Assembly: GCF_964355755.1 (NCBI RefSeq)
Contig: NC_092679.1
Span: forward strand, 16,606,932-16,670,931
Direction of reading: 5' to 3'
DNA: 64,000 bases
Origin: Antedon mediterranea
Taxonomy: Eukaryota > Echinodermata > Crinoidea > Comatulida > Antedonidae
The notes beneath the pieces were generated by a model. The model worked only from the letters and a program-made list of their open reading frames with translations, was not told where the DNA came from and ran no database searches. Shown here piece after piece: positions 3,531 to 60,033 of the stretch. Both the position numbers and the translations under genes were made by a program. Each line of letters begins with the position of its first letter. Position 1 is the stretch's first letter.

Positions 3531-3972
3531 CTGTAGAACCTCTGTTGGGACACTCCTATTAAGGGACTCCCCTAATAAGCAACACCCCTACTAAGGGACC
3601 CCTTTACAAAGGGACACCTCTATTGAGGGACCCCTCTATTGAGGGACCCCTCTATTGAAGGACCCCTAATAAAGGGACCCCTATTAAGGGACTCTCCTAT
3701 TAAGGGACTCCCCTAATAAGCAACACCCCTACTAAGGGACCCCTTTACCAAGGGACACCTCTATTGAAGGACCCCTAATAAAGGGACTCCTATTAAGGGA
3801 CTCCCCTATTAAGCAACACCCCTATTAAGGAACATCCCTATTAAGCAACATCCTTCATAAATAACCCCCTATTAAGGGATTCCCTATTAATTATTCTATT
3901 AAGGGACACTTCTATTAAGAAACACTTCTATTAAGAAACACCGCTTTTAAAAGACACCCGTATTAATAGGGG
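3531..3972. repeat. degenerate 17-18 bp tandem array (CTATTAAGGGACACCCC type)
   Basis: It begins with the dispersed-repeat start CTGTAGAACC and continues as roughly 24 imperfect units of the form CCTATTAAGGGACNCCC. The same start precedes related sequence at 6835, 18047, 38873 and 58886, so the array appears to be an internally expanded copy of a dispersed repeat. Confidence 0.75.
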
Positions 3973-29500: not shown

Positions 29501-31336
29501 AATTTTACGTAATTAACAGGTAAATTAATTAGATTACATTTCATCTGGGAAATCGTCGCAAGCGAAAGTAAATAAAGATTGCAAACCATGAGTATGCATT
29601 ATGCATGATGCTAATTAGGATTGTTTACAACTTGTCACGGTTGAGAAGGTGTTTTCACACAGATCGCAAGGAAGTTTTACATACAGAGTAGCCAAATAAG
29701 TGCGTTGCATTATGAGATATGTTTTGATTGAAAACTTTGACTGGAAGTCAAAGTTATTTTTTGAACAAAAAAACTGTATTTTGGTTAAATTATTTTTTTT
29801 TTCCACTAATTTTTTGTGAAAGTTAATAACTATTATGATACTTCAAAATGACCCACTTTTTTTCAAAATTAAAAAAAAAATTTTTTTTGGAATTAGTCAA
29901 AGGGACAATACATCTTTAAATAATAATAATGATAATAATAATAATATTCGTTCTTATAAAGCGCTTATTGCAGAATGCTTCTAAGCTTTATTTTTTTTTC
30001 ACATATGTAAAGCATAGTAAAGTTGTGTCTTGATTTATTCCGGTTACCCATTTTATATACTTGGGTGGAGAGAGGCAAATGTAAGTAAAGTATCTTAAAG
30101 GATACAAGCAATGCAGCGAGAGTTGGATTCACAATCAGTAATGCAACGTCCAACACACTGTGCCAAACACACTTACAAATAATAATAAATGTTTCTGTTT
30201 ATTTTTTTAGATAAACAAACTGTGAGTACAGTAGACTTGAACGCATGGGCAGATATTCGTAACCAATCAGAGTACAGCACAGTCGGTAGCAATCTTACTC
30301 ATTCAAAGCTGTTACAACAAGTAGCCATGAAAGCGGTATGTGAGGAAAATGTTACTCTCTTTTTTTTTTCACTTTTTAAGCTAATTTTGTATTAACATGA
30401 CATAAATAAGTTTGTAGTCTCTGCTAAAACAAGGCCATCGCAATCTCAAGTTAGTGTTTACCAACCACCCGACCAACCAACCGGTTGTGAGGAAAATGTT
30501 ACTCTCTTTTTTTTCTTCACTTTTTAAGCTAATTTTGTATTAACATGACTTAAATAAATTTGTAGTCTCTGCTAAAACAAGGCCATCGCAATCTCAAGTT
30601 AGTGTTTACCGACCGCCCGACCAACCAACCGACATAGTGAGCTGTAGAGTCACGTTGCATGTGACTGAAAACACTAATACTGCTCCAAAATCTAAAATAA
30701 ATAAATAAAAGGGCTCCAAAAATTACTCATGCATGCAAATTTAATACATTTAATAAATAATAACCAAATAAAAAAAAAGGCCAGCATTAGATTTGATTGA
30801 ATTTCTGAATTTTTGGGCTCTGCCACAACAATTGGTTTAGGTTGATTTTGTTCATGAAATAATATCAACTCGGGTGTCAATACCAATATGGTGTGCATTC
30901 TGGTGTGAGTTTTGGTAGGCGATGTGAAGGGTATTGAGCGCTGTCTACACTATCAAACTTTATGTGATAAAAAAAATGTGATGTGAGCATTGGGCACATC
31001 ACAGACTAGTTTGGTAGTGTAGACAGAGCTTTAGAGATGTGCTAAAATACTATCAGTGTTTTCATTATGATTTATTTATTTTGACAGTAATAAACAATTT
31101 ATTTTTTACTTCTGATATGATAGAATGAATCATCAAAGAACACTCCACGTTCACCACCTCCATCATTGTTCAGCACAATGTCGATTGCGAGCCTCATCAG
31201 CTCGTCTTCTCAGCTTGACTCCATACCGCTGATCAACCAATACGATGCCGAGGTAAACGCACCTATCACCTCCTCCTGTCTGCTCCAAGGGGATGAACTT
31301 CTCAAAGCTCTTGACCAATCAAAAGGGGACAATTAA
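8579..31336 (+). CDS. HIF1A: hypoxia-inducible factor alpha (bHLH-PAS), 15 coding exons
   Basis: Oxygen-labile transcription factor that pairs with ARNT. Coding exons: 8579-8658, 9940-10136, 12301-12464, 18504-18692, 19017-19204, 20902-21008, 22150-22297, 22816-22946, 25408-25491, 26172-26308, 26562-26645, 27534-27676, 28342-29297, 30211-30335, 31124-31336. Sum 2946 nt, 981 aa. The bHLH (about 28-85) has [14 protein letters not shown] and [14 protein letters not shown] starts near residue 105 ([14 protein letters not shown]). PAS-B/PAC spans about 245-358 ([14 protein letters not shown]). The N-ODD has LDSLAP (Pro414), a canonical prolyl-hydroxylase site. Two further candidates are FNPFAP (Pro462) and LGMNAP (Pro515). 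Exon 13 encodes a Gln/Ser/Pro-rich linker (about 551-830) and a basic RILKRK stretch, probably nuclear localisation. The C-TAD keeps YDAEVNAP (Asn956, the FIH asparagine) and [13 protein letters not shown]. Exon count and domain order match vertebrate HIF1A/EPAS1. A pre-duplication single HIF-alpha is the likely identity. Confidence 0.97.
10152..10272. mobile_element. MITE family M, copy 2 (decayed)
   Basis: In HIF intron 2. The left end is damaged (GTCTACAACACTATCAAATT) and the right end lacks the terminal GTAGACAGAG. The inner blocks GTGCCCAAATATGGTAGTGA and ATATGGGCACATCATAT are kept. Confidence 0.65.
10549..10862. mobile_element. TIR element, TTGTCCCCC-type, diverged copy
   Basis: The left end AAAAGATGTATTGTCTCCC and the right end GGGGAACAGTATATCTTTAA are imperfect inverted repeats. 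The interior has TTAATCACTTTTGTAGAAAG, as in the copies at 45030 and 57816. It lies in HIF intron 2. Confidence 0.6.
11251..11390. mobile_element. MITE family M, copy 3
   Basis: In HIF intron 2. The left end AAAGCTCTGTCTACACTATC is intact. The interior holds two ACCATATTTA/TATTTGGGCC-type blocks. The right end stops at TTGTCACTTT and has lost the terminal repeat. Confidence 0.65.
13088..14510. repeat. about 150-bp tandem repeat, three units, middle unit interrupted
   Basis: Units share TGTGAACCAGGCCTTAATA, GTCTGGTGAACTTTACAATA, CCAGACTATATTATACTA and GGACTGACAATGTAACC. Starts are near 13088, 13223 and 14394. The second unit is split by the TIR element at 13309-14350, so the array predates that insertion. 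Confidence 0.7.
13309..14350. mobile_element. 1-kb non-autonomous TIR element (AACACTTTGACTGCCA ends)
   Basis: Termini AACACTTTGACTGCCA and TGGCAGTCAAAGTGTT are perfect inverted repeats. TTA precedes the left end and TTAT spans the right. The TTAA-like context and CTTTG-bearing ends recall piggyBac-type elements, but the duplication is not clean. The right part has internal 32-bp direct repeats of GGCAGTCAAGCGTTGTGTTT (14274-14345). No transposase frame is visible. The interior is relatively CpG-rich (13980-14060). Confidence 0.7.
15045..15455. mobile_element. 411-bp TIR element inserted in SINE
   Basis: Termini AAGCCCGGCGCACACTAGAG and CTCTAGTGTGCGCCGGGCTT are perfect inverted repeats. Inside them GGCTCAGCCGGAAGC has inverted partners. 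TA at 15043-15044 and 15456-15457 flanks it as a probable 2-bp target duplication. The interior repeats GGCGCACACT, GCACGCGTGGC and similar words, and has no coding. Confidence 0.82.
15505..15623. mobile_element. MITE family M, copy 4 (inserted in SINE)
   Basis: Left end AAAGCTCTGTCTACACTATC, right end GATAGTGTAGACAAGGCTTA. It sits between the second and third pieces of the interrupted SINE in HIF intron 3. Confidence 0.85.
15648..16574. mobile_element. 927-bp TIR element with TAA target duplication
   Basis: Left terminus CGCCCGTATTCTTAAACCGG and right terminus CCGGTTTAAGAATACGGGCG form inverted repeats of nearly 40 bp (continuing as ACTTTAGTCGTAGTTCGA). TAA flanks both sides (15645-15647 and 16575-16577), and the intact SINE has TAA at this site. 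A 3-bp TWA duplication is known from PIF/Harbinger elements, so that superfamily is the best inference. No transposase frame is visible. Confidence 0.82.
17205..17355. mobile_element. MITE family M, copy 5
   Basis: Left end AAAGGCCTGTCTACACTATC, right end TTTGATAGTGTAGACAATGT. Interior blocks AATATGGTAGTGA occur twice in tandem. It lies in HIF intron 3. Confidence 0.8.
18047..18350. repeat. dispersed CAGTAAAGTCCCTATTAAG repeat
   Basis: Two approximate repeats of CAGTAAAG(C)TCCCTATTAAG and GGACCAGTGTGT are followed by GTCTCCTGAATA and a closing AGAGATTCTACTGTAG. It is related to the sequence at 38873-39075. It ends about 150 bp before HIF exon 4. Confidence 0.6.
19655..19825. mobile_element. 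palindromic MITE, GCCGATTCTCGG family
   Basis: Left AGCCGATTCTCGGTACTGTA and right AGCACTGGGAATCTGGTGAC are imperfect inverted ends. The centre is the palindrome CATCACATGTG...CACATGTGATG flanked by TATTTGGCAATACAA and TGTATTACCAAATA. A second copy is at 56566-56756 and an end fragment at 26090-26115. It lies in HIF intron 5. Confidence 0.7.
21397..21720. mobile_element. TIR element, TTGTCCCCC-type copy
   Basis: Left TTAAAGATTTAATGTCTCCC and right GGGGGACAATGCATCTTTAA are inverted repeats in HIF intron 6. The interior is AT-rich with AATATGCCATTTAAATGTCA and a partially inverted counterpart. Confidence 0.7.
22561..22722. mobile_element. MITE family M, copy 6
   Basis: Left end TAAAGCCTTGTCTACACTAT, right end TTTGATAGTGTAGACAGTGC. 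The interior keeps both the ATGTGCTCAAATATGATAGT block and the inverted CCATATGGGCGCATCACA block. It lies in HIF intron 7, about 90 bp before exon 8. Confidence 0.85.
23054..23276 (+). mobile_element. tRNA-derived SINE, GGATAGCCGAGTGGTTAGG type
   Basis: The head has a good A box (TAGCCGAGTGGTTAGG) and B box (GGGTTCTATTCCC) at tRNA-like spacing, then a body with ACTCCCAGTCCACTCA, GGCGGCGTGGAAAGGAACTG and CCGAGGCTTAGTACAATGAG. A second copy is at 58251-58450. The tRNA cloverleaf is not closed by a matching acceptor stem, so this is a SINE and not a tRNA gene. It lies in HIF intron 8. Confidence 0.82.
23345..24628. mobile_element. 1.28-kb TIR element, Tigger/pogo-like ends
   Basis: Termini CAGTCAACTCTCCCAATACC and GGTATTGGGAGAGTTGACTG are perfect inverted repeats, flanked by TA on both sides (23343-23344, 24629-24630). 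Secondary inverted words (AAACCGGACTTTC, GAAAAACCGGA) occur just inside both ends. CAG-ended TIRs with TA duplications are typical of Tc1/mariner-pogo (Tigger) elements. No DDE transposase frame is seen, so it is non-autonomous. It lies in HIF intron 8. Confidence 0.82.
25759..25942. repeat. 23-bp tandem repeat, eight copies
   Basis: Eight head-to-tail copies of ACCATGGAGCGAGTGAGCC followed by TTGA (the last two CTCGA variants) occur in HIF intron 9. Because 23 is not a multiple of 3, three units give a 69-nt, 23-aa period and an uninterrupted but spurious reading frame on the minus strand. Confidence 0.92.
26365..26513. mobile_element. MITE family M, copy 7
   Basis: Left end TAAGCTCTGTCTACACTATC is intact. 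The interior has three tandem AATATGGTAGTGATATG-like blocks. The right end is shortened to CATATATGGGTACAGAGCTT, having lost the AGTTTGATAGTG arm. It lies in HIF intron 10, about 50 bp before exon 11. Confidence 0.8.
27056..27313. repeat. 65-bp tandem repeat, four copies
   Basis: Units contain GTTGCATAAAAAGAGTTAAA, TTTAGTATGTG and AAACACAGCTATAAGTGACA. The word GCATAAAAAG starts at 27075, 27140, 27204 and 27269. It lies in HIF intron 11. Confidence 0.88.
29387..29919. mobile_element. TIR element, TTGTCCCTT family, left end truncated
   Basis: Nearly colinear with 5360-5914 (TTGTCCCTTGAAACACAAAA, GTTATTCACTTTAAGTCGAA, ATGTTTTGATTGAAAACTTT). The right end AAGGGACAATACATCTTTAA is intact; the outermost left TTAAAGATGTA is missing. 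It starts about 90 bp after HIF exon 13. Confidence 0.82.
29945..30165 (-). mobile_element. tRNA-derived SINE, GGCGCAGTGTTGG type, degenerate
   Basis: Read on the minus strand it matches the copy at 42660-42935 (CCGGTTACCCATTTTATATA, GGTGGAGAGAGGCAAATGTA in plus orientation). The B-box segment has lost about 13 bases, leaving GTTGGATTCACAATCAGTAA. It lies in HIF intron 13. Confidence 0.68.
30338..30632. repeat. 146-bp tandem duplication of intron start
   Basis: Sequence from about 30338 (TGTGAGGAAAATGTTACTCT) to 30483 recurs at 30484-30630 with few differences (GGCCATCGCAATCTCAAGTT in both). The first copy begins within three bases of the HIF exon 14 donor. The second carries TGTGAGG, without the GTATGT donor. 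Confidence 0.88.
30935..31033. mobile_element. MITE family M, copy 8 (internally deleted)
   Basis: Both ends are present (GCGCTGTCTACACTATCAAA and TGGTAGTGTAGACAGAGCTT) but the centre is reduced to GTGATGTGAGCATTGGGCAC, giving a 99-bp form. It lies in HIF intron 14, about 90 bp before the last exon. Confidence 0.85.
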
Positions 31337-35447: not shown

Positions 35448-38400
35448 ATGAAAGGTAAGAGATATTTGATTACTTGTTTATCATCTCAATTTCTTAAAGG
35501 GTTTTTGAGATGACTACTTGAGCCCAGCTAACTAAGTTCACCTGCTGAGAAGCCTGGTAACGAAGGATAAGCCTTTCTTCCCCCTGTGTGTAAGTGGGAT
35601 GTAAGTGTGTAGCCTGGTTCAAGCCTACGGTTTTGGTATATAGATTATTAATAGATAAGTAGGACCTACTAGGTCCTTGGTGTAGTTAGGCCTACTTCGA
35701 TTAAAAAAAAATACAATATTAAAATTTATGAGTTTAAATAAAATGCAATTTATTTATTCTGAATATTCAAGGTGGCCAGTCAAAAAAGAGTCTTAAAAAA
35801 AGTAAGAATACGATACATAAAATCCATCAAATTAATAGAATTAAAAATTTTTTTCAAGCAGTTAAATAGTGTACAGCATTTTCTTAATAATAAGCATAAA
35901 TACAATATCAATTAAAGAATCTGTATGATATCAATTTAATTATTGACGGATAATACTTTAGAAGTGAATGTTAATATTATAATTTTACTACAATAAAGGA
36001 TTTAATAGATCCGCCAAGTTGCTTGTAAAATGTAAAATCAGTCACTGAAACCACTTTGTACACACTAAATACAAAAGCATACCAATTTGTTTAAATATGC
36101 CTGTTGCATGTGAGAAATAGAAATTATACATGTCATACTTCACTTGTTATGCTTTACCTTGGAAACGTAAGATAATAGTAAAATATCGTTTAAGTGTTTT
36201 AGTATGTTTGTATAGTTTTGCACTTGTTTGTTTAAATCCTTATCAGCATGGTAGTTTGGTCCACACAACAGTAGAGTCTTACTGTTAGTATGTGTTGTAC
36301 ATTAAGTACATACTTACCGTTTAAAGTATGAAATGCTTGAAATATAACCATTTTTACAATGATTGAATATACTATTGAAGATGATCAGAAGTTTCTTGCT
36401 TGTAAGCTTTTCTTTTATTTCATAATCATATATCAATTTCTTTACTAGCATTTAGTTATTTTGTAATAGTACTGTATATGTATAATTGCTTGGTTAACAG
36501 CCAATCAGCCTTAAACTATACTGTATCTATAAGCAATTGAGGTTTAAAAGGTTTCAACCCTATTTCTATTTCACTCAAGTTTGAATGGTGATTATTTGGT
36601 ATTGGCTAGAAATGTAAATAATTTTGTATGGAACTTTGGTATGGAAGTATACAGTATATGCTACTGTATGTCTGTGTCACGTCAATACAGTGTTGGTACG
36701 GTACAGACGAGTGCAACCACTATTTTGAGCAATGTCCGACTGATTTCAATTAATTACTATTTCTATTTTTTTTTTTACAGTAATTGAAGTCAATAAAGAA
36801 AACTTTGATGCCCTGTTGGCATACGATGATGTCTTTCTGGATTACTTTAATGCTTTCCTCCAACTACCAGTTAGTACATAATATGGTTTTACTCTATAAA
36901 TACTTTTATAATTAGTTAGTTGTTAGTTTGTTCTCTAGAAAAGAGTCTTGACATTAGTATAATCCCATGCTATAATCCCACGACCTACCTTAAACTAAAT
37001 TCAGACTGTTGTAAATCTACTCCAGAGTCCAATGCAATCAGAGCAAGCTTGATTAGGTGTTAGAAAAATTGTTGTTGCACGTGACCAAGCCTCTGTTACC
37101 CTCTGGGCTGTTAGCATTGTTTTGCCAGGGGAGAGGCGGAGGCCTGGGACGGGTGAACAACATTGGTGTTGATCCTTTTTGATTAATCCAAATATGTTCT
37201 AATAATATTAATATTGTTAAAAAAACAATCAAGTGGGGTGGGGGCACCTGTGGGTAATTCTCATAAGGGAGGGGGAAGTGCCCTTTTTTGGGAAAAAAGA
37301 ACCCCCTGTGAAAATCCTGGTTACAGGCTTGATCAGAGTATAGTTTTACCTGCCCAAATTACCAGGCCCCCAGGGACCATACTCTTGTCATAGGGGTTAT
37401 TATATGTACACAATAAGGTACAGTAGACAATGCAAACAGTTTTGTTTATTTTCACAGGCATTCCCACAGCCATTGTATTACAACCGTTTGACTGGATCAT
37501 TCCAGGAGGTTGAAGATGCACCCACTGAAAGGTCACTACCAACCAATGAGCAACCACCTGCTCAGTTGGCACCTATTGACGAGGAGTTGGATAGGATTAT
37601 GGAATGGGCTATCAACGAGAGGCTACCACTTTTTATGAGGTAAATTTGCTGCTCCTTGAAGGGAAGAATGAATGAGGCAGCTAAAGCTCTACCTACACTA
37701 TCAAACTTTATGTGACAAAAAAAATGTGATGTGCCCATATATGATATCACTACCATATTAGGGCATATCGCTACCATATTTGACTAGTTTGATAGTGTAG
37801 ACAGAGCTTTTAAAATATAAAATCAGGTGTTAAGTTTGAGAACTTTTAAAAAAGATCTCAAACTTCACACCTGCATATGGCATTAAAATATGAACACAAA
37901 AAGTTAAAATACAAAGATGCAAGATAATTTGAAATTATCTCTTCTTACGTGTGTTTCACATTTTATTCAGAACAAGACTATTCCTCGAGTACAAGCTATG
38001 TAAATTACTTCTACGACCGCTTGACAACCGTAGCAGTGCCATAAGTCGACAAAGTAGTACTGGAGTACAGGGATACAGTCGTCAAACAACCAGTTATGCT
38101 ACATCCAGTTTGATACAAAGTGCTGTTCCAAGTGTGTATGACAATGAAAGCAATCTCAGCTGGCCTGATCTGGATCATACCGGTTTATTTAAGTATCTTC
38201 GACCAGGCAGTAGATGTCAAAGCTTACCTGCTACATTAGGACTTGGTGCGTTGATAATAATATATGGCATTTATAAGGCGCTCTTCCAAAAAAAAAAGAC
38301 CAGAGCGCCGCGTTAAATACTGAAATGATAAATCTTAAAATTACAATCATTAAAACTTACGATAAAAATTATTAGGCTTAAAATTGCGCAATATCTTAGG

Positions 38401-41400
38401 CAGATCTTATAGAAGGGTGTTTATAGATGCATCAATTTGGATTAAATATATCATCCATGGAAAATATATTTTTTGATTTTGATCACTTTTATTTTTTAAG
38501 GTCAGTACCATCATGGATATATGTCTTCCACGTCTGGTGCAAGAGAAGATGTCTGGCATAGCAGTAATGTAACGCCTAGCAACGAAGTAAAACCATCTCA
38601 AATTAGAAACTTTACCCAGAATATTACAGTTGGTAATGACTTTAAAGAAGGTTACGAGTCTCACAGTCCAAGTAAGTAGTTATGAGAACAATCAATCTTT
38701 ATTCTCATATAATGTATACAATAACATGTGAAAAGGAGCAAAAAAAAAAAAAAAAAAATAGCTTTCACTAATTTGGCACAAATATAAATTAGTCAATAGA
38801 TTGATTGAAAATAAAAAACTTAAAAAAATGATTAAACAAGAGATTTGAAAATGGCAACTTGAATTTAGATAATCAGTAGAATGCCTAGTAAGGGGACACC
38901 TTCAGGATCGAACAAAGTATCCCTTCAATAGGGTTGTTTCCTGAATAGGGGTTGTCCTGCCGCTGTAGTGTTAAAACATATATTTTCCCTACTTTGTTTT
39001 ATTAGAAAGTGCCATATTATTATTAGTTTTGTCTTCTGAATAAGGGTGTCCCAAAATGAGGGATTCTATTGTAATAAGTAAAGTTTTTTTGTCTGTAGGT
39101 AAAAAGAGTTCATTAAAAAGTCCAGGCTTGAAGACAAGTGTGTTGAAAAAGCATGCAACAATTCAGATACCACACAGTACAGAGGAAGAAGACACAGATG
39201 ATGATGATGATAGCTACCAGGAACCAGTACAAAAACGGTTTGTAATTCAAGGCTTTTTGTATTTGTGTATATTCTGAACAGATATTGCCTACTTAGAGAT
39301 GAAATATAAGGGAATGATCATTTTCTTGAGGGAATACATGTTTCATATATATTCATACTGAACAGATTGGTATCGGAGATATATCCTGCCAGAAACCCAG
39401 TGTGGATTTCGTGAAAACTGCAGCACAAATGATATGATTTTTCCTGTGCATCAAATACAAGAAAAGTGTATAGAGCGGAATACACACCAGATAAAATTGT
39501 TTTACACATGTATTTTATATATCGTTTTTTTAAAAAACATCACTGTCAAATATTGTGACTCGTCCATCGTCATCAAACTTGCTGTACACAGACATGCTAT
39601 GAAATTACTTTACATGCAAATAATGTGAAATAGATAAAAGAGTGAGTAGCAAATATTAGGATTAAAGGTTATTATTAACACATTTAAATAATTACTATCT
39701 TTATAGAGTAATGTCAGCACCTTTGAAAAAAGAAGATATTAACCTACTGTCCCCTAACCAGTCCACATATGGTGAGTTCATACAGGAGGTGATTGAAGAC
39801 GATGATGATCAACCTAGCTTGATTGAATACGATGATGAAGATCTGATCACCTATGAGAGAACAGAATCTGAACTGCTTCAAATAGTAGGCAAACATCATA
39901 TAACATTCCAACAACTCAAAGAAGAAATGCTGGGAGGAGTAAGTACTAACATTTCTTTTTTACATTTTTTTTATACACGTGATTGAAAATCCAAATATGG
40001 AGAAATTCTGTCTAAAACCATGTCAGTTTTGTATGATCCTTTGCCCGGATTGGTCCTTGCATTGTGGTCAAGTGAGAACCAAGATATATTGACCAAAATA
40101 AATTGAATTAAGATGTGTTTTTTCTGGCCTTGGATTAGCCCTACTGCTATAATGTAAAGCTCTGTCTACACTATCAAACTAGTTTGATAAAAAAAGTATA
40201 CAGTAGTGATATGCCCAAATATTGTAGTGATATGACATCATCATATCTATATATGGGCACATCACATTTTGTTGTCATGTAAACTTTGATAGTGTAGACA
40301 AAGCTTATTCTCCAAGCCTGTATCCACCTTTTTGCAGATGTGCCCTTTTCAAACTAGAGGCCCTAGCAGTGGAAATAATAGTAACAGGCCTAACTAGCCT
40401 AGCTCATGATGATTTTTCCTCCTTTTTGGAAAATTTCCTTTTGAAACATACTGACATGGTTCACTTGCAGTCGTTAGTAACCATTATATATATATACTGT
40501 CTAATTAAATGTAATTATATTTACAGATGTTCGGTATGGATATGTTCAAGTCTTTCCTTGTTGGTACAGCTGGAGAGAATTTACTTAATTTCTGGTTGGA
40601 CTGTGAACAATATCGTGACAATGTACAAGCATTGGGGAACACAGAAACCGTCATTACAAGATACAGACTATTTAGGTATGACTTCATATTACATTTTATA
40701 AAGACATTTCTTTTCTAATTTGAAAGTGGTACGGTGATACTGTAAACACATCATTAAATTTCGGAAAAATACCGCAAACATCACTTTATTAATAGAGAGA
40801 TTTTGATTTGTGACGAACAAGCTACAGTATGTCATGTAGGTTCATTGTGCACATGCAGAGATAATGAGATGTATGTCCTTGCACCCCACCTTGACACAGA
40901 CTTGATGGTTTCTAGTTGTTCTAGTCGTCACAAATCTAAAAGCTCCTAATGAAGAAACCTTCTTTAACATTCTTAGTAAGGAAACAGGGTTTTGATTAAT
41001 TGTTAATTAATCCTGCAGAGATATTCAAGACAAATATAAATTTAAACTGACCAAAGATGCACAGGAACAGATTCAGATTGCACAGGGTAACGAGGGATTC
41101 AGTGAATCAGTTTACACAAGGACACAGTATGATGTATTGAGAAGGTTACGAATGTACTGGCTCCCACGCTTTCTTATACACCAAGAAAGAATTGCATATT
41201 ACACGTATGTTTCTCAAATGTTATTTATGAATATTTATTTTTATTAATATTATATATTATATATATATTTTTAATATGAAACTTAATTTTTTCCTATTGC
41301 TTTTTTCAAAATAATAGTGTAAAAAAATCCATAAAATTGTTAAAAAAATATGTGGTAATATTTTAATTGTTTGTTTATTTCTTCTTTATATACTGTACCC

Positions 41401-44400
41401 CAGCACACTGCTGGGAGACTATCCCATACTCTCTACCAAGTTCTTAATACATAAACCATAGTGTGAGGAAATTATATTAAAGTACTGTATCTTGCCTAGG
41501 ATCCAAGCAGCAGGCAACAGGTCTTAAACCCATGCCTCTCACATACTCGGTGATGTAGTCACAAGAAATGGTGGTTCGGTTTTCGCAAGAAAAGGGAACA
41601 ATCTCTGTTCAAGCCTCTGGGTTGTCAAAGGCCTCTGTGAATAAGTGGTCAGGTTGAAACCTTGCAAACTGGTGTCTCTACGGCCATGATACTACTACTG
41701 CAGTCCAAGATACATACATTTACATATGGTTTTTATTTTGCATTTCTCTAAACAGACCTGAAAAATTTCAAGAATTGCATGATAAAATGCAAGAGGAGAA
41801 TTATAAGAAATATAAAGTATCATTCTTGCCCTCGATCTCTCTTGTAAACTCTCTGCCAGTCCGCCCTGGATCTTGCTATCGTCTAGCTTCAACTGTCAAA
41901 GACTGGAGTACTATTTCTAAAGCTGGGCGAACTGTGCAGGATGAGGTGCAGCCAGGCCAAGTTGAGGACTTATCACCTAGGAGCATAGTAAGACCAATGT
42001 CAGCAAGATTCAAGATTGGCCTAGAAAATGATCGAGAAGCTGGACGGCCATTCCAGAAATACCTTGAAAGGTGGGTGATAATGAATATGCCTTAAAAAAA
42101 ATTGCCTTTATTTTATTCATCATTGTAATATACTGTGCAAAAGTGTAATAATTAAATTTCTCTTCTTTTAGCAGAAATGCACAAACATTTAATAAATGAT
42201 CATTTGATTTGATTTGATTTGATTGATTATTTGCACACTACAGACTATTTCATGAAAGTTATTCATAGAATACATTTTTCAATTCCTTTTTTTAATTTTA
42301 GACAAAGTGACGTAAGATTATTAGCCAACTTACTGTTTTTGCAAGATGTCACTGACTATGGAGAAGCGGAGGAAAGATCAGCTGATAGATTACTTAGGAT
42401 GAGTCAAGCCTGGCTTATCTTCAACAAGTACATCATTGACGGCTCAGTGTGGGATTTAGGTAGGCTTAAGTCGTGAATGTTGAGTGGTGACTGATATGTC
42501 ACTCAGGGATATTAGGTCTATACATCTACTGCCCTATTTACAATAATTTTCAATCATGGGGATATAGGATGACCCACTAGATTTTGTTATAAATTTTTTA
42601 GTATAATTTGGAGGTGATATAAAAATAATAATAATAATTACCATATTTGTAGCATCCCTTTTTATGAATAATCATGCTCAAAGGCGCTTTACATTATTAC
42701 CCCGGTTATTTTTTGCATCAAAATGTATGGAAACATATTCCCATAATGCAGCTAGTAATCAACGCAAAGTTGTGTCTTGATCTAACCGGTTACCCATTTT
42801 ATATACCTGGGTGGAGAAAGGCAAATGTAAGTAAAGTGTCTTGCCTAAGGATACAAGCAATGCGGCGAGAGTTGGATTCGAACCACAGTCTCACAATCAG
42901 TAATCCAACGTCCAACACTGCGCCACACAGAGTGAATGTTAAAGGCATGTAATTGTACCGTAATATTAAGTAGTTTGTTTTATTACTTAATATTTACTAA
43001 AATACAGTATATGATTTAAAAAAAGGTAAAAACGAATTAATTTTACAATTTTTTTTAGATTTGAATTCTTCTGAACGGAATAAACTCCATCACAAACTTC
43101 TGACAGCCAGTGATTTTGTTGCGGTGAAAGCCTTTGAGAAGATTAAAGAAAAAGTGATGAAAAAATTACACCGGGAATGGCTCCGATATCTTCATCAAGA
43201 TCTCAAGACATTTTTAGAGTAATTATCACTTAAATTATTGTTATGTCCATTACACTGTTTTTTTCTTTAATAATGAAAACGTTCTTAACCTTTTCTTTTA
43301 TTTGCAATTTTGACATCTGTTTTTCTTTTTAATTTAAAGAAAATAAGAAACTTATTAAAATCTTCATTAAGCCGCCATCAGTTGTATAACTTTAATTTTT
43401 AACGTCATTTTTTTCAGATGTAGAGCAAGACAAGAAGATTTGCTAACTCAATCACGTAGTTCGAGTGATAATTCAACCAGTTCACCAGATGAGTTCACAG
43501 GAAAGACACCATTAAAACCAATAAAACCAAGGGACAGAAGAACACATAAGACAAATAGGTACGGTAGTAGTCACATTTGTTATTTAATATTCAATATCAC
43601 CAATAAAACCAGGGGACAGAAGAACACATAAGACAAATAGGTACAGTAGTAGTCACATTTGTTATTTAATATTCAATATCACCAATAAAACCAGGGGACA
43701 GAAGAACACATAAGACAAATAGGTACGGTAGTAGTCACATTTGTTATTTAATATTCAATATCACCAATAAAACCAGGGGACAGAAGAACACATAAGACAA
43801 ATAGGTACGGTAGTAGTCACATTTGTTATTTAATATTCAATATCACCAATAAAACCAGGGGACAGAAGAACACATAAGACAAATAGGTACGGTAGTAGTC
43901 ACATTTGTTATTTAATATTCAATATCACCAATAAAACCAGGGGACAGAAGAACACATAAGACAAATAGGTACGGTAGTAGTCACATTTGTTATTAAATAT
44001 TCAATATCACCAATAAAACCAGAGGACAGAAGAACACATAAGACAAATAGGTACGGTAGTAGTCACATTTGTTATTTAATATTCAATATCACCAATAAAA
44101 CCAGGGGACAGAAGAACACATAAGACAAATAGGTACGGTAGTAGTCACATTTGTTATTTAATATTCAATATCACCAATAAAACCAGGGGACAGAAGAATA
44201 CATAAGACAAATAGGTACGGTAGTAGTCACATTTGTTATTTAATATTCAATATCACCTATTGTAATTTCATAATCTTGTAATGTGAAACTATATAAAAAT
44301 ATCTTGTAGATGGAGGGTTAAGGATGAAAATTGTTGTTATAAGCTTCTCCTTCATAGTTACAGGCTTGTTTCTCAACTTAATCCTTTGTTTAACCTCTAT

Positions 44401-47400
44401 GTGATACACATGATAGACTTAAGCTCTGTCTATACTATTAAACTTTATGTGACAAAAAAATTTGATTTGTCCATATATGGATGTGATGATGTCATATCAC
44501 TACCATGGGCACACCAAACTAGTTTGATAGAGTAGACAGAGCTTTATACATTCTGTAGTTTATGTATCTTAATTGAATATATACAACAATATAGTTTAGA
44601 ATTACTTAATGCTAACAGTTTTTCATCTTGTATTTTCAATATCCATTCTAATATTTGTTCATTTCCTAAACTATACTTTTGCTTTGTATGCATTCATTAG
44701 CTTGACTGACATAGATGTCAATGAAAAATGTGAAGAGACTGACCTTGATACCAGGTGACATACCCATCATGATTTGCTTTATCAATATTATTCTTGTCTT
44801 GTTTCTATATATTCTTGGTTCTATTATATTTAGTTATGTATATTCATAACGTTAATTAACGTATGTAGTATGTCTATTTAAATTGATACTGTAGAGGCAT
44901 AAAAATAGGTGTTAGATTTATAAACATTCACAATTAGGGTCATATCCAGATTTCAGTTTTAACCTTTAAACTTTGCTTTTGGCTGAATCTTCTTGTTTAA
45001 ACATTTTAACCTACTCTACAATATTGTTGAAAATAAATTGTTCCCCAAAAACATGAAAAAGATTAAGTAAAAAATACTTTGAATAGTTTTATTAAAGTTA
45101 ATCACTCTCATAGAAAAAAAAAATGTTTTCACTTAAAAAGATGGTTAAATCCAATTAAAAACCCATTCCAGTAAATTTGAAAAATTACATTTTTTTTTTT
45201 TTTTCAATCTAATTTTTGGTCAAAGTGAATAACTATTATGTGGCATTAAATTTGCATATTCAACAAAATATAAAAAAAAACTATTATTTTTTCTGGGACA
45301 ATAAATTGTATTATTTATCAATATCTCATAATCTTATTTTAGTTTTATTTGATTTATATGTGTGTTTATTGATTTATAATACTTTAGCTATCCAAACAAA
45401 AAGTCTAAACAGAGAGGCAAAAAAGTTGAGCTGAGTCCAGAAGAAAAGAAAAAGGCCGCAGAGAGAAGGAAAAGGCAGAAAGCTGAACAAAAGAAATTAG
45501 TAAGAAAAGTGAAAGCAAGAGAGAAAAGCCAGAAAAAGAAAATAAGAAATGATGTAAAAGGAAGCGTTAAATTCAAGACACCCCAGGATGAAAAGAAGGA
45601 AAAAGAAAAGAAAGCAGAAGAAGTACAAAACACGATGGAAGAGTTATCAAAAGATGTAACATTTAAAAAGGTTTCGAGAAACAAATCGTAAGTCAAATTG
45701 GTATTTGTTATCTTAAAAATCTACAGGACTTATGGAAAGAAGTGGATTGAAATTATTATAGGAATATTGGAGAAGGGTCTAAAAAACGTAAATTGTGTAT
45801 ACAGTTTCTGCTGTGTTCTCATCTTTTGCTTTGATTACTTCCTCCCATATTATAATACTACTGTAGATACTCCGGCTTATGGCCGTTTTAGCCGTCTAAA
45901 CAATATTTTACAATGTGCCTATACTGTACCCTTTGAACATAAATCTACCCTTAGAAATTCTTCCTAAGATACCTAGGCTAGGCTTAAGTGGGATAATGAT
46001 GATGAATTTGTTGATTTTTAATCTGCCAAAAAAAGTGTGATGTTCCCAAATGTGGTAGTGATATGACATCACATTTTTTATCACATGAAGTTTGATAGTG
46101 TAGACAAAGCTTTTGAATATTCTGTATCACAAATGTGACAAAGTTAGATTCATTGGATAGACATTTTTATATTACAGATTAATGGGCTTATTCAAGTCAT
46201 ACCTGCAAGATGCTGAGAATCGTGAACGAGTCAATGAGTTTAATATGTTTATTGATACTGATGTCTATATAAGGCTTCCAGAATCTCACGGAGAAAAGAA
46301 AATAAGTCAAGGAAGAATGGTCATGTCTAGCTACTTTGATCCAGCCTCTAAACGGTATGTTTAAAGATATATATCTATATATATTCGATTGCAGACTTTA
46401 AGTATTTGTTTCTCTGTGGAGTATTTAGTTAACAATATGTTAAATTTATAGTTCTGGTCCTCAATCTTAACTGGAAACTGAAGAATTTTGGATTAAGTTT
46501 TAGTACACAACAAACAAAGCTTCTGTCAATCATTATCATTTAATAAAAATAAACAAATATTCTGTTTAGAACAGAGGTTTCCCAAGCAAATACACCATAC
46601 TGTATATTAATGTACGCCATTCATTTTAATTCTGGTGACGTGTTTGTTTAGGTTTGTTTCACTCCCACAAGATGTGACAGAGAAGCTGTCTTCAGAAGGC
46701 AATAAACCAACAGTGAAGACGCTAGAACTTGCCCAGAAATCTGTCCTACCAAAGCTTGAGAACAGTTTCCATGTATTTTGGAGTGTAAGTACAAAATTTT
46801 AAAGTGAGGTGCCACTTAACCACGTAACTGTCATGTACAAAAGTCATTCTATACATACTCATTTGTTCAGAATGGTTTTACTGCTGTGTCATCTTGAAAA
46901 CTGTTAAGCATCCTATTCAATTGCACTGATCAATCCTGACTGTTCTCCCAGAGTGGCTAGTGTACAACTCCCAAGACAGTTAACAAACCATCTGGTAGTG
47001 TAGGCTTGGTGGTCTAGAGGTTTGAACACCAGGCAAATGTTCTAGAGGTCATGGGTTCGAATCCCACCTGAGAATTACTTATTCTCAATGTACTGTACTT
47101 GGTATTAAGTACTAAATTATGTTTAGATTAGAACCAACATCTGACCAATTATTCAACTCCGTTCTGCAAAGATACTCCTCATGGAGTCGTAAATTACAAA
47201 TATCATCCAATTAACAAACCAATATACAAAATAACCATCACTCACCTACCATTTGATGATGCTGCCCATAAAAGCTACCACCTCCTACATGGATTGTTTA
47301 TTGTTATCATAAGCGCATTCACATTTCCTTTTCATTTGCAATCATTTCTCCACTCATTTCTAGGCTCATGTCAATTCACTTGAAGAGCAGGGAATTTTCA

Positions 47401-50400
47401 TTGGTGGAGACCTATCCAAGGCTGAGTTAGCCATGAGGTCTGAAAGCTCACAAAGCTTAATGGTAGCCTGGAAAAAGAAACGAAAAATGGGACGAGGCAC
47501 AGTAAGTTAATAGACCCTCTCAAATACAGTGTTCATTCTGCAGGCTATGGGAGTCATTTTACAAGCCCCCATTCGCCTGCTGTGCGGTGTCTTAATTTCA
47601 CTGTCTGCCATGCTGGCTAGGCTGATCGTACCTTTTTTAGATAAGATTTAACAGTAAAATACTGCTTGTTCAGTGTGCAATTCAGACTAATCTTGTATTG
47701 CAAAGAGCGCCACTGCCATCATGTTCCACGTCTTGTGAATGATAATAAAAGATCATACATGCCAACATCTGAAAAAAAACAAAACGGGAGGTGGTGTTGT
47801 TTTAGCTCAAAACGCCCTTTATCTATTTTCGAGAATGTAAGAAGTGCAGTGTGTGACGTCATAAGCGGTATCCCGTGGTGGCTATGTGAGGGGAATCCTT
47901 TCTGTAAAAAAAAAATTATGACTGCAGATGCTCGTACAATGGCTTAAATATGTAAATTTGCTCGTATGTAAGCCTTTTTGTTGTATTTTAATGTAGAAAA
48001 TATGTACATAAACATTCAGATGTCTTTGTAATCCAGGAGAAAAGATGCCAAAACAGGAGAACAATGTTAGGCTGGGAGACAAGTCTAAAATATGGGAGTC
48101 TCCAAGCCTAAACGGGAGTGTTGGCATGTATGAAAGATACGGACTAAATAACTTTTGTTACTCTACACATATTTAATCATCTCTTAACATATCGCCCTCA
48201 GTTGAGACTTACACGATATTTTAACAATAAGCATATACATAAATTTGCTTTTCATTTGCATATTTTGTTATCAATCATGTTTTCTTATAGCAATCTGGAC
48301 AGCATATGCCATCACCTCAAGACAAAAATGAATTCATATCATTCCTAATGCAACTCTCTCGTGGACTGCCACCTTTGAAGATGATGCACTTCCATCGATA
48401 CCTCATTGAACACGGTGAGCGAGACGGTTTTCCGCTCATGGCAAATGATCTACGGTTCTACATGGAGGCGCAACGATTCAAGGATGCGTACAACGGGGAC
48501 ACAGAGTTGATGATGTTGAAGAGGAAAGTTGAGGTTATTCAGGATTGCTTTTTTGAATCAGCTACTGGAGCAACTGGTGTCCAGGTATAAAACACCTCTA
48601 ACCTGTCTAAAAAGTAGTAGTAGTGTAGGCCTGTAACAGTAAAACAAACAAAAATTATAAATGCTTGTCTTCCTAAAGCTATATCTATACAATCAAACTT
48701 TATGTGACAAAAAAATGTGATGTGATGTCTATATATGGACATGATGATGTCATATCACTACCATATTTGGACATATCTCTACCCTATTGGTAGTTTGACA
48801 GTTTATGTGTTGTAAATTGAGTTTACAGCAACATTGCTGGTGTTTTGATCCTATAATTATCTTTATACAATCAATTACTAAAACTAGATGTAATTATTTA
48901 TGCATTTGAGTAAATTTAAAGTACAGGTATAGTGTAAATTAATAAATAAAACATATAAAAAACTTTCAGATTGATGTGAGCCAAGAATTAGCAACAAAGG
49001 TTATCAAAATGATAGATAACTTTCTAAAGGATCGTGGGAAAGATCCACATCCTGGTAACTTGTTTGAGGAATGTCAACATGCCGTCTTCAAGGAACTCTT
49101 ACCCTATTGGGCTGGATTTAATCGACGTTACACAGGATCACTTTTAGAAAACAGAGTACCAGGTAAGAATTTTATGAATGTTCATGCTAAGCTTGGTTCC
49201 TAGCGACGCAACGTAACGCAATCAAGCAACATAAGAAAATGCCCTTCTAATAATTGTGTTTGCCCCTGCCTGTGTGAAATTAAACCTGCGATGTTTGCAG
49301 CACTATTGCATCGTCGGTTCCCACTTGTGATTACGCAATACAGCACTTTGCGTCAATACGTCGCTGCATTGCGTTCTAGTGGTAAACCACACGTTGAAGT
49401 TTTCCTGCAGGTATAAAGTTTCTAGTGTCTACTATAGAATATAAAACTTTGCAACAACCTTGATAATAATCCCTACTTATTTTTCGTCTTTGGTAAAGGA
49501 GAATTTCATTGAGGTACCTTTAATTTATCTGTAGCTGTAGATTAGTGGTTAACGTGCTTGCCTTCCAATCCCTGGGTCCAGGGTTCAATCCTGACTTAGT
49601 GCCAGGGTTGTTACTTGCGACTCTTTCAACTCCACTCCCTAAGAGACTGTTTATAAGCACAATCAATTATGAAATAAAATAGTTTATCCATCCTGTAATT
49701 GGAAAGTTCTCACTGTTGGATGCGTATGATATAAAAAAAAAAACTCCTGTAGAAATGACAGATAACAGATTCCCAAAGTATTTTTTCACAATTATGGATG
49801 ATTTAAAGAAAAAGAATAATAAATTATTATAAACTATTTTCTATTTTGCTCATTTGTTAAGCAACCAAAATGGAGCGTTTAACACGAGAACGTCTGAAGA
49901 AATTCATAGAGATGGACACACCCCAGAAAGACTTCTCTCTACCAGCCATTGCAGCACCTCAAAGTCGAAGTGGAGGAACTTGTATCTCTTTCACGATTAG
50001 TGATGGCATACAGTGGAAGGTACATTATTTTAATATGAAAAAGACTCCTTTTACACTTAAAATTTAGTCCTGGGCCGCTCCAGAGTTGGGTCAAGATTTA
50101 ATTATTCTGATCCAGCGTGTTTACATTCATTTATTGTACTTTATTTTCTCAAGCCCACAGTCAGCCTATCGTAAGTGTAAAGGGGTCTAAATTATCTGTT
50201 TTAGTATGCTCCTGAGAGATGAAAAAGTATTAAGTAGTTTTATGTATTAAACAATGATATAAAATTATATATCATTTGAGCTGATATATCCTCCATACTT
50301 GGAAGATGGTCACATGGTATAGCATAGTTAGGAACAAATAATTTACACAGTATTAACATCTAAATTTACATACTGTATGCAAATTGTTAAAACAATTTAA

Positions 50401-50610
50401 ATTTTGCAGGTGTATGAATATGCAGATGGAGCCAGCTCACATGATGGAGGGGCGTCACCTGCCAATCTGAGTCATATAGCAGGTTCGATAGAATCCATCA
50501 ATACATCCGGAACCAATGAGAAGCAAGGACGTAGAAATCGTACTGGCAGTATCCTCGGAGAAGTCAGGTCAAGAATTGCTGGCTCACAAAAGGTTAATGT
50601 GTCCTCATAG
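35448..50610 (+). CDS. RGS22: regulator of G-protein signalling 22, 22 coding exons
   Basis: Multi-RGS protein expected to bind G-alpha subunits and to act in cilia or sperm. Coding exons: 35448-35454, 36781-36869, 37458-37639, 37971-38245, 38501-38671, 39099-39237, 39707-39938, 40527-40675, 41019-41204, 41756-42070, 42302-42459, 43059-43218, 43418-43558, 44701-44754, 45388-45687, 46178-46354, 46652-46784, 47364-47501, 48291-48584, 48970-49162, 49862-50019, 50410-50610. Sum 3852 nt, 1283 aa, against about 1264 in human. The N terminus (DDVFLDYFNAFLQLP) matches the RGS22 N-terminal motif. RGS-fold units lie at about 366-477 (FKSFLVGTAGENLLNFWLDC), 575-690, 853-957 and 1003-1165 (HFHRYLIEHG, ELLPYWAGF). 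Exon 15 encodes a Lys/Glu-rich segment (about 753-852), probably helical. The start exon supplies only ATG AAA G; an earlier in-frame start was not found. An 82-bp array duplicates the exon 13 donor. Confidence 0.95.
37682..37811. mobile_element. MITE family M, copy 9
   Basis: Left end TAAAGCTCTACCTACACTAT, right end TTTGATAGTGTAGACAGAGC. The two centre blocks read CCATATATGATATCACTACC and CCATATTAGGGCATATCGCT. It lies in RGS22 intron 3, about 40 bp after exon 3. Confidence 0.87.
38873..39075. repeat. dispersed repeat, minimal CCTATTAAGGGACACC type
   Basis: Starts with TCAGTAGAATGCCTAGTAAG and ends with GAGGGATTCTATTGTA, with AATAGGG and TGAATAGGGGTTGTCC inside. It is related to 18047-18350 and lies in RGS22 intron 5, ending about 25 bp before exon 6. 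Confidence 0.55.
40155..40307. mobile_element. MITE family M, copy 10
   Basis: Left end TAAAGCTCTGTCTACACTAT, right end TTTGATAGTGTAGACAAAGC; TCAAACTAGTTTGATA is palindromic at the inner left. It lies in RGS22 intron 7. Confidence 0.87.
41395..41580 (-). mobile_element. tRNA-derived SINE, GGCATGGGTTTAAGACC type
   Basis: On the minus strand it has GTATGTGAGAGGCATGGG, a B-box-like GGGTTTAAGACC and then GGATCCTAGGCAAGATAC. Head and body resemble the tRNA-like half of the composite element at 54005-54332. It lies in RGS22 intron 9. Confidence 0.55.
42660..42935 (-). mobile_element. tRNA-derived SINE, GGCGCAGTGTTGG type
   Basis: On the minus strand: A box TGGCGCAGTGTTGG, B box GGTTCGAATCC, then a body with TATCCTTAGGCAAGACACTT and AAATGGGTAACCGGTTAGAT. 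It lies in RGS22 intron 11. A degenerate copy is at 29945-30165. Confidence 0.8.
43513..44257. repeat. 82-bp tandem array duplicating the RGS22 exon 13 / intron 13 junction
   Basis: Nine junction-bearing units, each comprising the exon 13 end (AATAAAACCAGGGGACAGAA, CACATAAGACAAATAG), the donor GTACGG and about 38 nt of intron (TAGTCACATTTGTTATTTAA). Donor GT positions: 43559, 43641, 43723, 43805, 43887, 43969, 44051, 44133, 44215, an exact 82-nt period. Unit 2 has GTACAG; the rest have GTACGG. The first unit has AACCAAGGGAC where the others have AACCAGGGGAC. Only the first donor joins in phase with exon 14. As 82 is 1 mod 3, later donors would shift frame unless an upstream AG in the array is used. 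Confidence 0.95.
44420..44546. mobile_element. MITE family M, copy 11
   Basis: Left end TAAGCTCTGTCTATACTATT, right end GTTTGATAGAGTAGACAGAG. The centre is reduced to TCCATATATGGATGTGATGA and CACTACCATGGGCACA. It lies in RGS22 intron 13, downstream of the 82-bp array. Confidence 0.85.
45030..45307. mobile_element. TIR element, TTGTCCCCC-type copy, ends decayed
   Basis: Left AAATTGTTCCCCAAAAACAT and right TTCTGGGACAATAAATTG are imperfect inverted ends. The interior has TTAATCACTCTCATAGAAAA and an inverted GTGAATAACTATTATGTGGC. It ends about 80 bp before RGS22 exon 15. Confidence 0.6.
46021..46113. mobile_element. MITE family M, copy 12 (left end lost)
   Basis: Begins at ATCTGCCAAAAAAAGTGTGA, keeps CCAAATGTGGTAGTGATATG and ends with TTTGATAGTGTAGACAAAGC. 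It lies in RGS22 intron 15, about 65 bp before exon 16. Confidence 0.75.
46995..47200 (+). mobile_element. tRNA-derived SINE with intact B box
   Basis: TGTAGGCTTGGTGGTCTAGA is A-box-like and GGGTTCGAATCCC is a perfect B box at tRNA-like spacing. The following body (GTACTTGGTATTAAGTACTA, ACTCCTCATGGAGTCGTAAA) has no close partner in the window. It lies in RGS22 intron 17. Confidence 0.65.
47754..48132. mobile_element. 379-bp TIR element, CATACATGCCAACA ends
   Basis: Left CATACATGCCAACATC and right AGTGTTGGCATGTATG are inverted termini. AAACGGGAGGTG and CTAAACGGGAGT also lie just inside the ends. No transposase is visible. It lies in RGS22 intron 18. Confidence 0.75.
48673..48805. mobile_element. 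MITE family M, copy 13
   Basis: Left end TAAAGCTATATCTATACAAT is mutated and the right end is degenerate (GGTAGTTTGACAGTTTATG). The centre CTATATATGGACATGATGAT is kept. It lies in RGS22 intron 19. Confidence 0.7.
49532..49742 (+). mobile_element. tRNA-derived SINE, GTAGCTTGGTGGTTAA type, best copy
   Basis: A box TAGATTAGTGGTTAACGTG, B box GGGTTCAATCCTG, then body words CGACTCTTTCAACTCCACTC and CCATCCTGTAATTGGAAAGT and an A-run. It is the reference for the copies at 2739 and 14997. It lies in RGS22 intron 20, ending about 120 bp before exon 21. Confidence 0.82.
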
Positions 50611-58700: not shown

Positions 58701-60033
58701 AGTATCATTTTCTGAGGTAAGATTAAAAGAGCATGAATTGTTCTAGCTTTCACTAAAGTCCACTTCCTTTATTGCTTAGTTCATACTACCATCTATTGCT
58801 AAAAAAGTACAAATTTTTCCAATCTTGTTGTCAGTACACAAAAAAAAAACCAATTGTATCATCTTAAGATTCAATTACATTTTTCCAGTAGAACCCCTCT
58901 CTTTGACACCCCTACCAAGAGAAAACCCCTACCCAGAGGACAACCCTACCAAGAGGAAACCCCTACCCAGAGGACACCCCTACCCAGAGGACACCCCTAC
59001 CCAGAGGACACCCTACCCAGAGGACACCCTACCCAGAGGACACCCCTACCCAGAGGAAACCCCTACCCAGAGGACACCCCTACCCAGAGGACAACCCTAC
59101 CCAGAGGACAACCCTACCCAGAGGACACCACTACCCAGAGGACACCCCTACCCAGAGGACAACCCTACCCAAAGGACACCACTACCCAGAGGAAACCCTA
59201 CCCAGAGGAGACCCCTACCCAGAGGACACCCCTACCCAGAGGACAACCCTACCCAAAGGACACCACTACCCAGAGGAAACCCTACCCAGAGGACAACCCT
59301 ACCCAGAGGACACCACTACTCAGAGGACAACCCTACCCAGAGGACACCCCTACCCAGAGGACAACCCTACCCAAAGGACACCCCTACCCAGAGGCAGTGC
59401 TGCCCAGAGGACAACCCTACCCAGAGGACATCCCTATTCAGAGGATACCCCTATTAAGAAGACATTTTCTTGGAAACAAACAAGGGACGATATATGTTTT
59501 AACACTATGGCCAACCTATTAAGCAGACATTTTCCCGAATGTGCCTACATGTATTTAAATTTCTTCATATATATTTTCTAATGTTGTATTTTTACTGTAG
59601 GATGATTCTGAGGCATCAGAAGATGACACAACGGCAAGTGAAGAAAATATGAATCAAGTAAAGCATTCACGATTACAGTGAGTATACTGACGTATTCCTC
59701 TACAAATATACACGTTTGACACCAATATTCAGGTGTAATATTTTCTATATTCGTTACATTTTTTAAGCCTAGCTACTCTCTGTACAGATTTTCAAATTCT
59801 TACAATATTATGATTTTAATTTATTTCACAGGGATGCTAGAGAAGATAAAACAATACCACCACAGAGAGAAAAAGCACCGACACAATTGATGCCCCCTCA
59901 TCCTTTATTCCACACTGCCTCAAACCCCAGTGGTAACAGTAACCATGGTGACAATTCTCTTGTAATGGGTTTCTACCAACCTTCTCTTAATACGCAACAA
60001 AATGACGAAGACGAGGAAGACTATGATTGTTAG
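55797..60033 (+). CDS. DRAP1: DR1-associated protein 1 (NC2-alpha), seven exons
   Basis: Histone-fold corepressor that pairs with DR1 (NC2-beta) on TBP-bound promoters and blocks TFIIA/TFIIB entry. Exons: 55797-55838, 56374-56446, 56877-56970, 57641-57778, 58620-58716, 59601-59677, 59832-60033. Sum 723 nt, 240 aa against about 205 in human. The start MPSKKKKFNARFPPARIKKI and MQTDEDIGKVSQAVPVLISK match DRAP1 closely. The histone fold runs to about residue 85 (ALEILFLEALV-like helix 2, ARNAKTMTRSHIKQCIE). The following FDFLKDLVEGVPDMP is also conserved. RRGRPPKKA near residue 116 is AT-hook-like. An acidic stretch (DDSEASEDD) and a Pro/Asn-rich tail precede the terminal EDEEDYDC, matching the acidic end of vertebrate DRAP1. 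Intron 5 contains the 17-bp array; intron 4 holds a SINE and a TIR element. Confidence 0.97.
56566..56756. mobile_element. palindromic MITE, GCCGATTCTCGG family, second copy
   Basis: Left AGCCGATTCTTGGTATTCTA, right TACAGCACTGGGAATCGGGT. The centre AACATCACATGTGTGTCACA is interrupted by about 45 nt relative to the copy at 19655. It lies in DRAP1 intron 2. Confidence 0.65.
57816..58118. mobile_element. TIR element, TTGTCCCCC-type copy
   Basis: Left GTATTGTCCGCCAAAAACAT and right TTTCAGGGTGACAATACTTC are imperfect inverted ends around an AT-rich interior (GTTAATCACTTCTATATAT). A 25-nt A-run precedes the right end. It lies in DRAP1 intron 4. Confidence 0.65.
58251..58450 (+). mobile_element. 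tRNA-derived SINE, GGATAGCCGAGTGGTTAGG type, second copy
   Basis: Begins within the A box (AGTGGTTAGGACACTTGACT), keeps the B box GGGTTCAATTCCC and the body CCAGTCCACTCAGCTGTAAA. GAGCCCTTTA occurs just before it (58241-58250) and again after it (58464-58473), possibly marking a target duplication. It lies in DRAP1 intron 4. Confidence 0.8.
58886..59530. repeat. 17-bp tandem array, about 30 units (ACCCAGAGGACACCCCT)
   Basis: It opens with CAGTAGAACCCCTCTCTTTG and closes with CTATTAAGAAGACATTTTCT and ACACTATGGCCAACCTATTA, the same dispersed repeat seen at 6835. Between them are about 30 units of 17 nt with variants (ACAACCC, AAACCCC, ACACCAC). Because 17 is coprime with 3, each frame cycles through a 17-aa period (PYPEDNPTQRTPLPRGQ) without stops, giving spurious frames of over 200 codons. 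It lies in DRAP1 intron 5. Confidence 0.92.

Follow-up and report, generated by a model that had tools for sequence, protein, structure and literature searches.

Host gene and exon model

The window, that is, the whole 64,000-nt stretch of Antedon mediterranea DNA analyzed here, carries on its forward strand a gene predicted to encode regulator of G protein signaling 22 (RGS22), and within this gene a tandem array repeats an exon-intron junction. The exon model of the gene was assembled manually on the basis of open stretches and splice sites, and its 21 in-phase exons join into 1275 codons with 0 stops. The best match of the model in the PDB is 9fqr_Ha (Regulator of G protein signaling 22; E 5.6e-20, phmmer), with which N-terminal, RGS-region and C-terminal stretches align in collinear order, and the exon at 40527-40675 matches the Pfam RGS family with an E value of 1.6e-4, slightly below the curated cut-off. 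Judged from this predicted protein, the array lies in an orthologue of RGS22. The parts of the gene that concern the array are as follows:

36781-50592, forward strand: RGS22 gene, modeled with 21 exons, its 5' and 3' ends lying beyond the model
43418-43558, forward strand: array-bearing exon (exon 'l', the 12th recovered, numbered 13 in the original prediction), 141 nt, phase 2 at both ends
44701-44754, forward strand: next predicted exon (numbered 14 in the original prediction), 54 nt, phase 2-2, open, weak acceptor
45388-45687, forward strand: following exon, lysine-rich, phase 2-2

The original prediction held that the repeated segment is a real exon-intron junction of RGS22, and this stands, as the exon at 43418-43558 lies inside the open, in-phase model with its 9fqr match. 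The exon is bounded by the acceptor tttttttcag/A and the donor TAG/GTACGG (the slash marks the junction) and is in frame with its neighbors. The array sits at its 3' end, in a linker region outside the 9fqr alignment, so phase and splice signals, not conservation, are the support for where the exon ends. The introns that flank this exon measure 199 nt upstream and 1142 nt downstream; the latter, which bears the array, is the longest of the 20 RGS22 introns measured (median 479.5 nt, minimum 199 nt), and subtracting eight units from it leaves 486 nt, close to the median. The predicted exon at 44701-44754, directly downstream of the array, has an acceptor that scores -2.5 in a leave-one-out calculation and, with its phase 2-2, may be a cassette exon. 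The first donor of the array could join either this exon or the one at 45388 in phase.

Structure of the array

43517-44257, forward strand: tandem array in which an 82-bp unit occurs nine times head to tail, followed by ACC, found by TRF and by direct count
43517-43598, forward strand: copy 1, the only copy whose 42 exonic nt are part of the real exon

TRF reports a period of 82, 9.0 copies, 98% matches, 0% indels and a score of 1447, and direct counting gives a length of 741 nt (9 x 82 + 3). The register is exactly 82 from end to end, with a lag-82 identity of 98.8%. The earlier description of nine 82-bp copies with an exact period at the end of an RGS22 exon was thus accurate, and only its start coordinate, 43513, needed correction, to 43517 by TRF. 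Each unit reads ACCAATAAAACCAGGGGACAGAAGAACACATAAGACAAATAG/GTACGGTAGTAGTCACATTTGTTATTTAATATTCAATATC, with 42 nt on the exon side, 40 nt on the intron side and AG/GT between them, and this AG/GT is present in nine of nine copies at a constant spacing of 82 nt. The trailing ACC of the array also opens each unit, and it is possible, from the sequence of the two ends, that it represents the microhomology at which the original duplication arose.

Judged by their alignment, the copies resemble one another far beyond chance. Five single-base variants distinguish them from the array consensus (at 43530, 43645, 43995, 44023 and 44199), and each is private to one copy; the variants fall in copies 1, 2, 6, 7 and 9, and copies 3, 4, 5 and 8 are identical. 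Position 43530 is an A in copy 1 (CCAAGG, Arg), and the matching base is a G in copies 2-9; this single-site difference bears on whether the edge unit is left out of homogenization, a trait of mirage minisatellites. The order of amplification is not recoverable, since all of the variants are private to single copies.

It is also conceivable that the real locus holds one or a few copies and that the array is an assembly artefact. A single assembly is the source of the sequence, and the copy number of nine is read from one haplotype. We nevertheless consider an artefact very unlikely: copies 1, 2, 6, 7 and 9 bear unit-private substitutions, the register is exact, the flanks of the array are clean and single-copy, and the chromosome-scale contigs suggest that long-read data underlie the assembly.

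Two further candidates were rejected. A search of 354 Mb in 18 contigs, in which very common words were skipped, found the unit nowhere else in the genome, and a dispersed repeat or transposon was set aside within the reach of this search, as the unit matched one locus only. A coding repeat was rejected because 82 is not divisible by 3 and stops occur in all forward and reverse frames of the unit.

Donors, reading frame and stop

43559-43564, forward strand: donor 1, GTACGG, predicted working 5' splice site, score 4.19
43629-43631, forward strand: in-frame TAA, 70 nt after the end of the exon, at which any transcript extending beyond donor 1 would stop
43641-43646, forward strand: donor 2, GTACAG (+5 G to A), weakened, score 1.60 as compared to 4.19
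43723-44220, forward strand: donors 3-9, GTACGG, at 43723, 43805, 43887, 43969, 44051, 44133 and 44215, score 4.19

Nine donors had been predicted at 43559 + 82n, and all of them were located; eight read TAG/GTACGG, and that of copy 2 reads TAG/GTACAG. The original prediction had passed over this mutated second donor, as well as the AG/GT in each unit and the published name of the phenomenon, which is given below. Donors and acceptors were scored with matrices derived from RGS22's own splice sites, and the value of 4.19 shared by donors 1 and 3-9 falls within the range of the other RGS22 donors (1.97 to 9.39). Because seven of the eight extra donors carry the same 9-mer as donor 1, the motif alone does not single out donor 1. 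A structure that masks the later donors was rejected: a predicted hairpin around the donor (ACAAAT...ATTTGT) appears in each of the complete copies that were folded, and the fold of the stretch is less stable than that of any shuffled version, so donor 1 is not set apart by structure.

Each later donor would lengthen the mRNA by 82n nt. The original prediction stated that only the first donor keeps phase with the next exon; arithmetically donors 4 and 7 (+246 and +492 nt) do so too, and what holds is that a full-length protein is to be expected from donor 1 only, because all eight later donors reach the TAA at 43629. Beyond donor 1 the frame reads RYGSSHICYLIFNITNKTRGQKNT and then stops, alike for donors 2-9. 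Splicing of each unit as a mini-exon, in which an acceptor AAAACCAG/GGG at 43613 (score 1.31) would create 28-nt exons, is possible, but it was set aside as weak and frame-breaking.

The original prediction left two outcomes side by side, namely that the first donor always wins or that the locus produces frame-shifted isoforms, and the former is better supported, by analogy with lancelet reports and with a class of human introns. Where human donors are near-equal, exons that follow a short intron and precede a long one favor the upstream donor, although this is a tendency seen in humans, and the unfiltered set, in which donor strength is uncontrolled, prefers the downstream donor (PMC9225289). 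The introns of 199 and 1142 nt that flank the RGS22 exon match the upstream-favoring class, and a preference for donor 1 would therefore be expected. The same expectation follows from lancelet arrays of the same anatomy, which are reported as not disturbing splicing (PMC3087553, PMC3902484), and the preference for donor 1 is thus one inferred from precedent.

It is unlikely, in our estimate, that the later donors are substantially used and that RGS22 transcripts with 82n-nt extensions, all ending at the TAA at 43629, accumulate as a result. Similar lancelet arrays are reported without aberrant mRNA, human data prefer smaller exons, and the long downstream and short upstream introns form the class that favors the upstream donor. 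Such use would nonetheless be consistent with the seven extra donors whose motif and score are those of donor 1, with the many introns that still lie downstream when each extension reaches its stop, with the tendency of the intron-proximal donor to win in short introns (PMC9225289), and with the alternative splicing that repeats at human exon-intron boundaries can yield (PMC2812944). Its consequence would be either a truncated protein without the later RGS regions or a lowered RGS22 output, through unproductive splicing whose extent depends on the number of copies.

The AG/GT found in every unit at exact 82-nt spacing could in principle serve in both directions: one unit's AATAG/GTACGG would act as the donor, a later unit's as the acceptor, and introns of 82n nt would leave scarlessly. 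A frame-breaking expansion would then be repaired at the RNA level, whichever donor joins the next exon. Arrays of such dual-specific splice sites are known from the polyubiquitin gene UBC (nine units) and from VCX3A; UBC units can be spliced out with the use of a weak acceptor, and 45 of the 77 human dual-specific cases have an intron length divisible by 3 (PMC10809524). The RGS22 array resembles UBC in having nine tandem units with AG/GT at constant spacing. However, UBC units are 228 nt long, coding and a multiple of 3, whereas those of RGS22 are 82 nt long and half intron, and their acceptor side is very weak: it is purine-rich and scores -5.2, a value that 70% of the AGs in the window equal or better. 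In addition, several AGs lie upstream of the site, an 82-nt intron is far below the RGS22 minimum of 199 nt, and 82 = 3 x 27 + 1, with an in-frame TAA in the extension, so that retained units would not be harmless as they are in UBC. Given this unit length and the very weak acceptor side, the array is not filed with the UBC type, and we hold splicing of this kind to be extremely improbable.

Comparison with known arrays and proposed origin

Judged by its layout, the closest named class for the RGS22 array is that of the lancelet 'mirage' minisatellites, which have been described in Adh3, troponin C, the globins BflGb6 and BflGb9, and PGBD5; they reportedly leave splicing undisturbed, and haplotypes differ in the number of copies of one of them (PMC3087553, PMC3902484). 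Like these, the RGS22 array spans an exon-intron junction (43558/43559, as 82 x 9), and its units carry splice signals, in the form of eight identical donors and one weakened donor. It differs in its host gene and host animal and in the nine near-identical 82-bp units at the donor. Other systems are more distant. Tandem duplication of AGGT-bearing segments is a recognized route to new introns (PMC3443670, PMC4974935), and the array shares with the classical intron-gain model a duplicated segment that contains AGGT, and with the potato RdRp case a duplication that crosses an exon-intron boundary and gives extra splice signals (PMC4974935). In RGS22, however, the duplicates land in an existing intron, and the predicted mRNA needs no new one. 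The variable internal tandem repeats of segmentally duplicated human genes also place a minisatellite at exon-intron boundaries, but they occur in recent primate paralogues and come with transcript evidence, whereas the RGS22 unit is found at a single locus (PMC2812944).

We consider it likely that the array is a mirage-type minisatellite of recent origin, spliced mainly at donor 1 and close to neutral. It would have been born by an 82-bp tandem duplication that took in the 3' end of the RGS22 exon together with the beginning of the intron, at a 3-bp ACC homology, and would then have been amplified to nine copies through unequal exchange or slippage. Copies 2-9 would fall within the intron, extending it from about 486 to 1142 nt, with donor 1 remaining the main splice site. 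Near-neutrality would follow from splicing mainly at donor 1, which is the sole donor that keeps the frame open, and selection would tolerate the array as long as donor 1 is used. Any leaky transcripts from later donors would stop at 43629 and would probably be destroyed by nonsense-mediated decay. Since the stop is the same for all of them and many introns lie downstream, frame-shifted isoforms are likelier to be noise than to be useful. The array is most likely harmless, the splice site of the first copy being used.

Tandem arrays are frequent in the host genome, which has ten large chromosomes and 33% G+C in the sample taken here, a profile that does not resemble a lancelet: 200 kb sampled from ten chromosomes contained 49 arrays with a period of at least 20, five of which have at least 95% identity and at least 3 copies. 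With about 3 splice sites per kb in RGS22, a random 82-bp unit in this gene would cover a splice junction in roughly a quarter of cases. A tandem array needs no special mechanism to have captured a junction, and the RGS22 array is of a kind already known, not evidence of a new mechanism. Its copy number would be expected to vary between individuals, which the lancelet precedent makes plausible.

Splice-site-duplicating minisatellites, which the literature found describes mainly in human segmental duplications and in lancelets, appear to be extended by this array to a further animal and a further gene. It also constitutes a natural test of donor choice, in which eight identical donors and one weakened donor are evenly spaced before one downstream acceptor, and in which the read-out of frame and stop marks each wrong choice.

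Other repeats in the window and genome

A second tandem duplication lies about 13 kb away in another gene (30334-30631; 148 bp, two copies, 96%). It begins at an apparent exon donor, AAAGCG/GTATGT (GT at 30336), and the duplicate donor near 30484 reads CCG/GTTGTG, indicating that the copied donor has decayed; from its sequence, it looks like an older, smaller mirage. At 25757-25945, a 23-bp unit is repeated 8.2 times with 99% matches and is likely to be a further young minisatellite. At 58905-59453 and 3547-3966 there are arrays whose units, 16-17 bp long, are of the type GGGACACCCCTATTAA / GACACCCCTACCCAGAG, and similar C-rich arrays were seen in two of the sampled loci (L011 and L018), which suggests that they are a recurrent low-complexity motif in the genome. 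Finally, a dispersed repeat that contains GTCTACACTATCAAACTTTATGTGACAAAAAA and a 21-bp core like ATATCACTACCATATTTGGGC is present in several introns (37700-37810, 40158-40310, 46040-46115 and 48680-48800), and this core recurs in tandem at 26412 and in sampled loci.
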